From: Candidatus Pacearchaeota archaeon
GTDB lineage: Archaea; Nanoarchaeota; Nanoarchaeia; Pacearchaeales; GW2011-AR1
Direction of reading: 5' to 3'
DNA: 21,688 nt
Assembly (NCBI GenBank): GCA_002690445.1
Contig: NZER01000131.1
Span: 1-21,688 of the forward strand
Made by a program: the position numbers and the translations under genes. Shown here piece by piece: positions 4,914 to 14,909 of this stretch (position 1 is the first letter of the stretch; every line of letters starts with the position of its first letter). Below the pieces are notes generated by a model. The model ran no database searches, had not been told where the DNA came from, and was given only the letters and a program-made list of their open reading frames with translations.

Positions 4914-6521
4914 TTATCGGAATAAACTAAAGAAACTGTTAGAAATATTAGCGAAGAAACCGTTTCCGTCTTGTTCTTCTTCTTGTGGTACAATCGCTTG
5001 CAACCGCTCTGTAGCACTCTGTATCGCTTCTGCGTCGCCGGAAATGTCGATATTTTTATCTGGCTCGTCAGAAACTATAGGAGGCGGTGCTTGGAATGCA
5101 GTACCTGCTTCACTCTGTATATCTCTCTGCACTAGCTGTCGGTTTTGCTTCTTTTGTTGTAAGACTGATTCGTTATTCCCGGGCATTGGGAAATATTGCA
5201 ATGCAGCACTCTTGAACTCTTCAGGAGAAATAGCCGCTCCCGATTCTCGGCGAAGCAACGCGTTGATAAAGTTTCTTTCCGCTTGTTCCTGTTTTTGTAC
5301 AGCATCACTCTTAAAACGATTCGGTAAACCTCGTTCTACGGAAGTCACCGAGGTTAAACGCGGTAAAACTTCGTTTTCTAATTCATCAAATATTTGATTT
5401 GCCTGCTGCATTCGCGCAGCAAATCCGGCCGCCTTAAATTGCGATGCTGTTCCTGTCGGCACTGGCTCTCCCGTCACTGGATCTACGGCACTTGGTTGTG
5501 GATCAAAAGCCCCCGCAGCACTAGCCAACTGAATCGCCTCATCCGGTGTCTCAGCGTTACTAATCTGCCGCAAGGTCAAAGCATCCGCCCCATTCTTTGC
5601 CGCCTCCAATGCCACCTTATAAATATTGTCCTGCTCCTTTTCCGCACGATCCACCTCTGCCTTCTTCGCTGCCTGTGCCGCGCTTGTTGCCGCCGCACGC
5701 TTCTTCTCCGCCGCCGTAAATGCGGGAGATGCCTGTACGATCTCTAAATTACGCTCCACTGCCGCGATCTGCTCCCGAACGGGATCGAACTGTGCGGCAA
5801 CCGCGCGATCAATCCCATCAAGCGCACTGGCAAGCTGTCCTCTCGTCGCTTGAAAGAGCGAGTTTATCGTCAATGCTTTGATAGCGTTCTGCCGCAGCAA
5901 CGCACGCTCCTGCCTACCAAGTATGGTAGTCGTAATCCCGCGTCCTGCTGCGCCCGCTTCGAGTTGTAACGGGATAGATGCCGCCTCTGCCTTCAACTGT
6001 GATAACTGAGCAAAAAGATCCTGCTGTGTCCTCTCAAGTTGTGAAATACCACGTCGTTCTTCCTCTTGGGCGCGGAAGGTCGCCTCTCCCGTAAGCCCTC
6101 CTTGAAGACGCTGTAATAGCTCGCTCTGGTTTTGCACTTGTTGTTCCGGTGCCGATAGTCCCTCTTGTGGTAACGCCTCCACACCGAGAGAAGCAACGTC
6201 AAACACAGGCGGATCCTCGGGCGATACAAACTGCAATGGCGCAGATGGTGTAAGAGCATCGGATGTGATGGGCGCAGTTGGAGTCGTTGTCGTATCCGCA
6301 AATCCGGCCGGTGCTTGGAAAAATGGCCGCCCCTCAATCCTCCCCGTCTCAAAGTCCCGTTCTGCTCGTGCGCGAAAACGTTGCTGTTCATCCGGTGTTG
6401 CTTGGACGACAGGTTTCGAACTCGTAAAGATCTCCGCGGGATTCCTCCCACGAGCAATAGCCGCCTCTCGCTCGGCTTGTACGCGTCCGGGGCTTGCCCC
6501 TGCTATTTGTAGTCTTGCCAT
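4914..6521 (-). CDS. internal virion protein with the RRESGAAIS motif, 535 aa
   Basis: The ATG is preceded by GAAGG about 9 nt upstream. The N-terminal third is low-complexity and Pro/Thr/Gln-rich. Residues about 130-320 form Ala/Gln/Glu-rich coiled-coil-like helices (for example ERTQQDLFAQLSQLKAEAAS). Near residues 417-447 stands NFINALLRRESGAAISPEEF followed by YFPMPGN. I recognise this motif from internal virion or ejection-type proteins of many podophages, where R-R-E-S-G-A-A-I is strongly conserved. The C-terminus ends in the aromatic amphipathic tail FFANISNSFFSLFR, which could touch membrane. The stop is separated by 1 nt from the next ATG. Role: a minor capsid component ejected with DNA. 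Confidence 0.75.
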   Translation of the reverse strand: MARLQIAGASPGRVQAEREAAIARGRNPAEIFTSSKPVVQATPDEQQRFRARAERDFETGRIEGRPFFQAPAGFADTTTTPTAPITSDALTPSAPLQFVSPEDPPVFDVASLGVEALPQEGLSAPEQQVQNQSELLQRLQGGLTGEATFRAQEEERRGISQLERTQQDLFAQLSQLKAEAASIPLQLEAGAAGRGITTTILGRQERALLRQNAIKALTINSLFQATRGQLASALDGIDRAVAAQFDPVREQIAAVERNLEIVQASPAFTAAEKKRAAATSAAQAAKKAEVDRAEKEQDNIYKVALEAAKNGADALTLRQISNAETPDEAIQLASAAGAFDPQPSAVDPVTGEPVPTGTASQFKAAGFAARMQQANQIFDELENEVLPRLTSVTSVERGLPNRFKSDAVQKQEQAERNFINALLRRESGAAISPEEFKSAALQYFPMPGNNESVLQQKKQNRQLVQRDIQSEAGTAFQAPPPIVSDEPDKNIDISGDAEAIQSATERLQAIVPQEEEQDGNGFFANISNSFFSLFR

Positions 6522-12307: not shown

Positions 12308-13162
12308 TTATGCAACGTTAATGTCAAAGATGACTGGTTTTACGTTCGTCCAGATCTTTTCCTTATAGTCCACACGAGATACGACTGAGACACCCGAAAC
12401 CAAGTTCGGGTCTTTGTCATCAACCATGATCTGTCCAAATGTGTCCCGTACAATACCGATCCACGGTGCCTTCTTCACACCCGCCATCAAGTGGTTCGCA
12501 GCCAACAGTTCCGATGAATAATGGGTGAATCCCATATAGTTCATCGCCTGCCTCGATCCGCCTGTAAGTGCAGTGTCAGCAGTTGAAAATCCGTTTGCTT
12601 GCATAAATGCTTCAAGGATCTCCAAGTCTGCGGCACGCCATACGATGAATCCGCCGTTGCGGTTCAGCATCGTCTCACCTTCCGCAACACGGATCACACG
12701 CCGTAAGCCGCGAATAATATCATCAATATTCGTTGCCGATACGGTGATCTGGTCAGTTGCAGCACCGCCGCCTCCGATACTTGACGTACCGAAGTCGGTC
12801 ATATTGGCGTGATCGGCAAAGATCGCCGTACCAATATCCTCGCTCAGAAGCGTTCCCTGCCGTGCGGCAAGCTGCATCTGATCAAGATAATCCGTCTGCG
12901 CCAAGTCAGCGCGGTCAATAACCTGCGGAAGTATCTTGTAGGTATTTATGGTGACACTCTCGTCTGTGATCGTGTCATCTTGGAAGGTGTACGCAGTCTC
13001 TCGCGTCCCCGTCTGTACTGTCGCATCAGTTCGATACGGGTTGTGTACAACGCGCTTATTCGAGATATCTACCGTACAAATATCCTTCCAAATGGTTGGC
13101 TCGTCCAAGTGTTCTTGAACCGTAGCCGCCCAATCTTCCTGATAAATTACTGTATTTGCCAT
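12308..13162 (-). CDS. major capsid protein, HK97-fold type
   Basis: 284 residues. MANTVIYQEDWAATVQEHLD at the N-terminus, a long central spine-like helix region (NIDDIIRGLRRVIRVAEGET), a beta-rich peripheral domain with a Gly-rich loop (SSIGGGGAATDQ), and a C-terminus with PWIGIVRDTFGQIMVDDKDP and YKEKIWTNVKPVIFDINVA all fit tailed-phage coat proteins. It follows the acidic scaffold gene and has the best Shine-Dalgarno in this area (AAGGA, 4 nt before the ATG), as expected for the most abundant protein. No N-terminal maturation protease cleavage region is obvious. Confidence 0.85.
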   Translation of the reverse strand: MANTVIYQEDWAATVQEHLDEPTIWKDICTVDISNKRVVHNPYRTDATVQTGTRETAYTFQDDTITDESVTINTYKILPQVIDRADLAQTDYLDQMQLAARQGTLLSEDIGTAIFADHANMTDFGTSSIGGGGAATDQITVSATNIDDIIRGLRRVIRVAEGETMLNRNGGFIVWRAADLEILEAFMQANGFSTADTALTGGSRQAMNYMGFTHYSSELLAANHLMAGVKKAPWIGIVRDTFGQIMVDDKDPNLVSGVSVVSRVDYKEKIWTNVKPVIFDINVA

Positions 13163-13189: not shown

Positions 13190-13816
13190 TCAACGCAGTT
13201 CGACTTTTCCAATGGGGTTGTCGGTAAAGGTACTGCCCGATTTTGCTTTCGCAATTTTCGCCTTCACCACCTCGCGGCGCAGCTTGTTCTGATCAGTAGG
13301 GGGCAGTACCCCCTTTTTGATCCAATACTCAACCTTGTCGCGTGATGCCGTGCCGGATCGTTTCGAGCCGGATGGCGTGGCTTCTTTCGTCGCCGCCGCA
13401 TCTCGCCGTTCTTTCAAATCCTTTTGGAAGTATCCTGTTGCCAAGACATCATCCAGCGACTTCCCCGTTGCATCCATTACCTCGCGCACGAAATCAAACT
13501 CGTTTTCTTTAATCTCTTTTGCGAGGAGGTATGCCTTTTCTGCGTAGTTAAACCCTTTTGTTTCCTCAGAAGCAGGGGTTTGCGCTTCTGGCTTTTCGTC
13601 TTCTTTTGGAGTGTTTGCCTTTTTGAGTTCGGCAATCTCAGCTTTCAAAGCTTTGGTTGCTTCCCGCTGCTTTGATCCCTTTTTCTCCAACTGTTTTGCT
13701 CGCTTCTCCCAATCGGTAGGAGTTTCTTCTGCGCCCGCGTCTTCGTCCTCTACATCCTCGTCCTCCGCGTCCACGTCTTCTACCCCCTCCGCCATGTCAT
13801 TTTTTATTTGTGCCAT
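13190..13816 (-). CDS. scaffolding protein
   Basis: 208 residues, very acidic at the N-terminus (GVEDVDAEDEDVEDEDAGAE). A predicted coiled coil follows (KRAKQLEKKGSKQREATKAL), then Pro/Glu-rich linkers, and finally a basic C-terminal region (about 165-200, VVKAKIAKAKSG). Acidic, coiled and with a basic C-terminal coat-binding end, it has the classic scaffold layout and is encoded just before the capsid gene. The upstream gap 13817-13931 is AT-rich and may hold a promoter. Confidence 0.8.
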   Translation of the reverse strand: MAQIKNDMAEGVEDVDAEDEDVEDEDAGAEETPTDWEKRAKQLEKKGSKQREATKALKAEIAELKKANTPKEDEKPEAQTPASEETKGFNYAEKAYLLAKEIKENEFDFVREVMDATGKSLDDVLATGYFQKDLKERRDAAATKEATPSGSKRSGTASRDKVEYWIKKGVLPPTDQNKLRREVVKAKIAKAKSGSTFTDNPIGKVELR

Positions 13817-13931
13817 AAAATGATAAATGTCTATTAAATTGTTTAATGAGATTTATAACTCAGTATCAGTTTTTCGAAGACTGAAAACTTACTGCCAATT
13901 TTTAGGTGGGAGAATTGAGAACCCCGCTATG
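13817..13931 (-). promoter_or_regulatory. AT-rich leader before scaffold and capsid genes
   Basis: This 115-bp gap is one of the longer ones in the late genes. On the minus strand it holds TATAAA (13857-13852) with a poor -35 region, so it is at most a weak promoter candidate. A broken inverted repeat (13861-13870 with 13880-13894) lies just upstream of it. It may add capsid and scaffold transcripts. Confidence 0.25.
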
Positions 13932-14593: not shown

Positions 14594-14743
14594 CTATCGT
14601 GTTCGTTTTTTTCGTTTCTTTGGTTCGACCTTAGCGCTCTCCTTATCATCGAGCTTCTCAATTTCGGCATGTAAGTCTCTGTTGGTGAGGTTGTTGCCTC
14701 GTATTTTGTCCTTCAAAGAGGACATCTTGTATTTGTCTAGCAT
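14594..14743 (-). CDS. 49-aa basic-tailed protein
   Basis: MLDKYKMSSLKDKIRGNNLT starts the protein, a helical charged segment (LHAEIEKLDDKES) follows, and it ends PKKRKKRTR. The lysine/arginine tail could bind nucleic acid. The stop TAG lies 2 nt before the next ATG. The start is 18 nt downstream of the T-run of the terminator at 14761-14786, with TATAAATACTC just before the ATG, so this gene would be first in the transcript that continues to scaffold and capsid. Unknown function; it might act on the RNA element upstream. Confidence 0.6.
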   Translation of the reverse strand: MLDKYKMSSLKDKIRGNNLTNRDLHAEIEKLDDKESAKVEPKKRKKRTR

Positions 14744-14760
14744 GAGTATTTATAGCTACT

Positions 14761-14786
14761 AAAAACAGCATCAGTGGTGATGCCGT
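14761..14786 (-). terminator. intrinsic terminator, minus strand
   Basis: On the minus strand ACGGCATCA (14786-14778) pairs with TGATGCTGT (14773-14765). The stem is 9 bp with one G-U, the loop is CCAC, and a run of five T (14765-14761) follows at once. It lies between the 155-aa and 49-aa genes and would cut the packaging/portal transcript off from the capsid genes unless it is read through. Confidence 0.65.
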
Positions 14787-14864
14787 TTCCGGGGGGACTA
14801 AAATATGAGTTTTGGGAGAAACACACCTTAGTCCTACCGAGAACGGCAAGACCACCCCAAAACT
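14774..14864 (-). promoter_or_regulatory. imperfect 82-bp palindrome overlapping the terminator (attenuator-like)
   Basis: Arms 14781-14801 and 14828-14848 match 17 of 21 in inverted orientation, and GTGGT (14774-14778)/ACCAC (14851-14855) extends them. The whole stretch 14774-14855 is one imperfect palindrome. Its transcript-late arm contains the 5' arm of the terminator (14786-14778), so the two folds exclude each other. A further 9-bp pair, AGTTTTGGG (14808-14816) with CCCAAAACT (14856-14864), crosses the main stem as in a pseudoknot. Two open frames starting inside it on opposite strands are mirror by-products of the palindrome. Confidence 0.6.
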
Positions 14865-14909
14865 TTTTATTCAGTTGTAATAGTTCTAGTATATCACACC
14901 TCCCTCATG

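Follow-up and report, generated by a model that had tools for sequence, protein, structure and literature searches.

A recurrent two-state RNA element ahead of phage head genes and its likely role as a three-structure transcription attenuator

Ribosome-mediated attenuators, such as that of trp, rely on 1:2, 2:3 and 3:4 pairing and have a translated region close upstream. In phages, lambda nut and HK022 put are RNA elements of operons which govern termination and act on RNA polymerase over distance, and the autoregulatory pseudoknot of T4 gene 32 is located in a leader, where it exerts translational control and no terminator is present. The rplJL leader of Bacillus subtilis harbors three overlapping structures, an anti-antiterminator, an antiterminator and a terminator, the first of which is stabilised by L10(L12)4 (PMC4538822). 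The logic of a three-structure attenuator is already known from that leader.

The window, by which we mean the whole stretch of DNA analysed, is a virus record of 21,688 bases with its head genes on the minus strand. Ahead of the scaffold and capsid genes it carries an RNA element (Table 1) which most probably acts in cis as a three-structure transcription attenuator of the head genes, with P1 as anti-antiterminator, P2 as antiterminator and T as predicted terminator. The element resembles the rplJL leader in this logic and in placing control of an operon in a leader: terminator and antiterminator share a strand, a third structure forms earlier and should exclude P2, and both states display compensatory change. 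It differs from it in that rplJL is a ribosomal protein operon with a kink-turn target (PMC4538822), whereas phage head genes are concerned here, and in that P1 would exclude P2 by crossing it; no relation between the two was detected. The pairing logic and the translated region close upstream are also those of trp-type attenuators, but the upstream region is here an ordinary phage gene and no dedicated leader peptide was identified. Like lambda nut and HK022 put, the element belongs to a phage operon, but it contains its own predicted terminator, and boxA-like sequence is found only in a subset of its members. The T4 gene 32 pseudoknot, likewise a pseudoknot in a phage leader, resembles the tandem pseudoknots near the scaffold gene of the window, but it controls translation and has no terminator, whereas the element has the terminator-like T. 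Membership of an Rfam family was rejected, since the window and 13 further loci gave no match at gathering score, L10 leader included, and the best match of the window element at E<=10 was MIR5020 (30.3 bits against the 73 needed); this agrees with the initial annotation, made from the window alone, which had recognised no known riboswitch class. A riboswitch would be expected to have a conserved ligand-binding core, and across 14 elements almost no letter is invariant (2 of 135 columns). No description of such an element was found in the literature searched.

In the minus-strand transcript the element is ordered A-B-A'-B'-C and ends in a U-tract. The terminator hairpin, the palindrome and the pair crossing it, all noticed in the initial annotation, are present where it had placed them, although it had counted too few pairs in the palindrome: B and B' pair at 29 of 34 positions (25 Watson-Crick, 4 G-U). 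B' is common to P2, where it pairs with B, and to T, where it pairs with C, both in the window and in relatives, whereas P1 and T are compatible, and in the window B folds on itself inside P1. A abuts the base of P2, and A' sits in the apical loop at the other end of some 30 stacked pairs; on geometric grounds P1 and the complete P2 should therefore be mutually exclusive. A pseudoknot holding both at once is probably sterically impossible, but P1 could form together with just the top of P2. The minus strand of 14740-14900 has a minimum free energy of -53.2 kcal/mol (z -4.8), a stability equalled by none of 200 shuffles. In constrained folds the two states of the window element are nearly equal: with 15 nt of upstream flank, P1+T reached -46.0 vs -44.6 kcal/mol for P2, and without the flank -41.7 vs -44.2 kcal/mol. 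A likeness of AAACTTCTAC/GTAGAAGTTT to Cas12a repeats was dropped, P1 being unrelated in sequence in other members.

Table 1. Head genes, element and neighboring motifs of the window
Feature	Position	Strand	Remarks
Terminase large subunit	19699-18116	minus	
Portal-like gene	17555-15714	minus	named by position and size; no PHROG match
155-aa gene	15377-14910	minus	just upstream of the element
Promoter-like extended -10	14888-14896	minus	TGATATACT; 23 nt before A; one mismatch to TGnTATAAT
A, 5' arm of P1 (anti-antiterminator)	14855-14864	minus	AGTTTTGGGG; pairs with 14808-14817
B, 5' arm of P2 (antiterminator, palindrome)	14822-14855	minus	self-folds at about 14829-14854
A', 3' arm of P1	14808-14817	minus	TCCCAAAACT; lies in the P2 apical loop
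B', 3' arm of P2	14774-14807	minus	5' arm of T formed by its outer part, 14778-14786
C, 3' arm of terminator-like hairpin	14773-14765	minus	followed by the U-tract
T, terminator-like hairpin and U-tract (predicted terminator)	14761-14786	minus	ACGGCATCA-CCAC-TGATGCTGT, then TTTT
49-aa basic ORF	14594-14743	minus	directly 3' of the element; no PHROG match
219-aa gene	14591-13932	minus	
Four tandem small pseudoknots	13797-13924	minus	upstream of and overlapping the start codon of the scaffold gene (13816); found by eye, three of four by script
Scaffold-like gene	13190-13816	minus	named by position, size and acidic composition; no PHROG match
Major capsid gene	12308-13162	minus	PHROG 267 major head protein, E 7.4e-09

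Relatives of the window were absent from the deposited phage collection by megablast (8.2 kb) and by tblastn with portal and capsid, and a scan of genome contigs gave a single relative, in a Methylococcaceae MAG, which says little about the host. Among the 120 terminase relatives listed of 1451, those with names are bins of Paceibacterota, Atribacterota and Nanoarchaeota, and for this reason a patescibacterial host for these phages can only be guessed at. A capsid search yielded one locus, L002, which displays the same order of element parts in different letters. Alignment searches yielded overlapping sets of at least 80 loci with the capsid, at least 80 with the portal and 19 with a second portal query. 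A scan requiring all of P1, P2, T and a U-tract, applied to 61 non-redundant loci (606 kb), gave 11 matches on the gene strand, in 10 loci, vs one weak match on the other strand and none in six dinucleotide-shuffled sets. Made blind to the U-tract, the scan of the same loci again gave 11 gene-strand matches, with four weak opposite-strand matches (1-4 T) and none in ten shuffled sets; nine of the 11 have at least five T in the eight bases after the stem, and in the other two (window and L046) the U-run was counted inside the stem. Over 176 loci with 1.14 Mb of novel sequence the scan for P1, P2 and T returned 20 matches on the gene strand and three weak ones on the other, and L071, whose tail does not satisfy the U rule, was included manually to make 21 elements. 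A DNA pattern based on a single subgroup had 12 matches in viral contigs, ten of them elements (three already known), and the two others, L180 and L186, were dropped because both lie inside genes; a second pattern gave only known loci, and the total is 28 elements.

In 17 contigs covered in full or almost in full (25 pieces, 407 kb) 15 matches were obtained, one each in 15 contigs and all on the strand with most coding sequence. The scan undercounts, since in the L071 and L184 contigs its thresholds missed elements already known, and the notion of one element per genome fails for L040, which has two, and probably for L184. These phages can do without the element, given that 51 of the 61 related loci had no gene-strand match (the hand-added L071 among them).

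Covariation was assessed in two alignments, each of seven elements: A4 comprises a subgroup whose A arms are similar, and A5 the portal class. The structures came from these very sequences, which favors the percentages of paired cells given here. For P1 with the B hairpin and T, 95.7% of cells are paired in A4 and 86.4% in A5, with changes on both sides in 13 of 33 and 18 of 35 pairs, respectively; for P2 the corresponding values are 87.4% and 87.7%, with 19 of 39 and 16 of 29 pairs. None of 500 shuffles was as high in any of the four cases, and sliding the partners lowered pairing to 34-50%, vs 86-96% in true register. Compensatory changes, the lack of which the initial annotation had named as grounds for giving up its proposal, are accordingly found in both folds and both alignments. 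In A5 the further pair types did not stand out against shuffles (63/500 and 167/500). On the coding strand G-U exceeds A-C in P2 (83:46, p 0.0014) and in T (24:1), and P1 has no such excess (11:19), in a count which covers only the elements parsed by the scan, 26 of the 28 judging by the misses seen in the energy analysis. B often has at its middle a perfect palindrome of 8-12 bases (e.g. in L179, L187, L030 and L174), which gives the small hairpin enclosed by P1 a self-complementary tip, conceivably a dimerisation site, and in L149 (2386-2410) the A arm stands twice in tandem (AAACTTCTACA-ACA-AAACTTCTACA).

Models built from A4 (R1) and A5 (R2), 14 elements in all, were applied to 120 sources out of about 190. 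Outside its training set R1 found L188 (E 6e-12), L184 (2e-11), L185 (9.5e-07) and the second copy of L040 (3e-06), as well as L149, L119, L033, L162 and a likely second copy in L184 (E 0.0019), its non-training finds ranging from E 6e-12 to 0.015, and R2 found L171 (E 9e-06). Opposite-strand matches had E 0.02-0.9 except for one of R1 in L166 (E 2e-05, opposite to the genes), which by its fold was judged a different, simpler palindrome. This stretch (4929-4990, before the portal gene) is a long, near-perfect palindrome ending in a U-run, the apical loop of which repeats part of the 3' arm, and it is perhaps a simpler form of the element. Taken as a whole, the element is a real, recurrent two-state RNA belonging to a family, to which the window member would be assigned by its architecture and place, since neither R1 nor R2 finds it at E 1.

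The elements lie between genes, in 26 of the 28 cases ahead of the portal gene or of the scaffold/capsid block, the other two being L182 and L184. Eight precede the portal gene, including L167 and L174, which were placed by portal match as their gene call is incomplete. Eleven precede the gene that comes before scaffold and capsid; the portal gene lies before the element in six of these (window, L139, L162, L153, L130 and L119, where homology to the window scaffold or capsid is partial or distant in L153 and L162 and absent from the short locus of L119) and after the capsid gene in the remaining five (L011, L033, L071, L095 and L149), in which the element is still ahead of the scaffold/capsid block. 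Another seven stand directly before a scaffold-like gene or the capsid block (second copy of L040, L070, L179, L181, L187, L185 and L188). Two of them, L185 and L188, directly precede scaffold-like genes, and their capsids have no BLASTP similarity to that of the window (best E 2.1 and 0.30). Short basic ORFs with an SLKDKI-like start and a lysine-rich tail are found 3' of the element in several phages, among them the window, L071 (4595-4729) and L149 (2533-2685). A perfect extended -10, TGnTATAAT, is found between head genes upstream of the elements of L149, L130, L119 and L040, and also in gaps of L012, L083 and L017; it occurs in loci without the element too.

The pairings, their covariation in relatives, and the position and strand of the element are read from the sequence, and from them we infer that T terminates transcription, that P1 and full P2 are exclusive, and that a factor acting on P1 sets the choice. 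P1 is complete before B' is made. Should P1 persist, the outer part of B' would be free to pair with C, T would form and the polymerase would stop before the portal or the scaffold/capsid genes; should P1 be lost or never form, B would pair with B' along the whole of P2, precluding T and allowing read-through into the head genes. The initial proposal of an attenuator-like RNA ahead of the head genes on the minus-strand transcript is supported, and that of a two-state switch largely so, with P1, there a crossing pair, acting as a third alternative structure. Its order of events has to be amended, as P1 and not the palindrome is complete first, and where it had T triggered by an opening of the palindrome, the trigger would be whatever favors P1. 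Folding energies were compared for 27 elements, L184 being left out as it was not parsed by the scan. With A' out, P1 has formed to 70% or more in the minimum-energy fold in 26 of them (wholly in 24), and in 25 P2 has the lower energy as long as C has not emerged. In the full-length RNA the lower energy is that of P1+T in 12, and the two states are within 5 kcal/mol of each other in 16 (permutation p 7e-04), so that the switch could rest in either position; in some elements one state is strongly favored (by 18 kcal/mol in L046 and 15.5 in L011). Thermodynamics would thus let P2 replace P1 and give read-through, and anything holding P1 would lead to T. Candidate inputs on P1 are a phage protein, the ribosome ending the upstream gene and, in a subset, Nus factors at a boxA-like sequence. 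As a general part of the element a boxA/Nus site was rejected: against the boxA consensus the window scores 10/15, at background, and five of the 28 elements score at least 12/15 (null 1.5%). A second boxA-like motif used for this comparison had been tuned on the data itself.

The choice might instead be made by translation, a ribosome near the upstream stop codon hindering A so that P1 fails, P2 forms and transcription continues, with untranslated transcripts terminating. This is conceivable, if on balance unlikely. The stop codon indeed lies at most 20 nt before A in 21 of the 28 elements, but this spacing is uncontrolled, phage genes being tightly packed anyway, and the distance is 23-177 nt in six more and 45 nt in the window, where it makes a ribosome trigger less likely together with the promoter-like TGATATACT close before A. 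Moreover, a promoter-like extended -10 within 75 nt upstream of nine of the 28 elements (shuffle mean 0.97, max 5) would in some cases start transcripts past the stop codon. These same nine sites, and a length and U-tract that suit a small RNA gene, are what one would expect of a free-standing phage RNA of about 110 nt, with its own promoter-like site and terminator, whose fold acts in trans and for which T is only the 3' end. We regard such an RNA as improbable, given that 19 of the 28 elements have no promoter-like site, that in six the start codon ATG of the portal gene comes 4-21 nt after the U-tract, and that an RNA acting in trans would not need a B' with two partners.

That the palindrome works in DNA, as a protein-binding site or cruciform, is very improbable. 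A perfect palindrome of at least eight bases at the center of B, for which an RNA switch has no need, is found in 16 of the 28 elements vs 11% expected from shuffles, but the strand bias, the U-tract, the G-U excess in P2 and T, and the covariation of two exclusive folds all argue for RNA. Any single element could also be read as an ordinary terminator beside which palindrome and crossing pair are coincidental, and most related loci have no element at all; with covariation in both P1 and P2 and not one match in 16 shuffled scans, we give this reading hardly any credence. The cis-acting attenuator remains the reading we prefer.

Separate from the attenuator, small H-type pseudoknots of the form S1-UUN-S2-S1'-A-rich-S2' are found in the gap before the scaffold gene, 65 of them in 55 loci vs 5.2 expected from shuffles, with none in 19 of the 55. 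Their density is 8.2 per kb, vs 0.9 per kb in other intergenic stretches. The last pseudoknot includes the scaffold start codon in the window and in several relatives (e.g. L005, L009, L041 and L050); in the window its CAT pairs with the ATG, and its TCATTTT with an AAAATGA of the coding sequence. By eye, and uncounted for the attenuator, the loop strand often starts G-UU(N) in both motifs, and for this reason one may speculate, with considerable doubt, that a single head-module protein controls the head genes autogenously at two RNA levels. Binding a UU-looped pseudoknot, it would stabilise P1 (transcription off) and the tandem pseudoknots at the scaffold start (translation off), such that, once assembly is saturated, free scaffold, capsid or small basic protein would cut its own supply.

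The element is a compact natural switch, with states that would be exclusive by topology, and it is testable in vitro without a host. Since it is common to phages whose capsids lack sequence similarity, it may be exchanged between phages as a control module. The phages that carry it are known here only as metagenomic contigs. That the two-way fold is found again in further uncultivated phages, in quite different letters, suggests that an on/off control of head production is conserved. If a conserved switch in nascent RNA does set the dosage of head genes in tailed phages, this would be a new layer of late-gene regulation.
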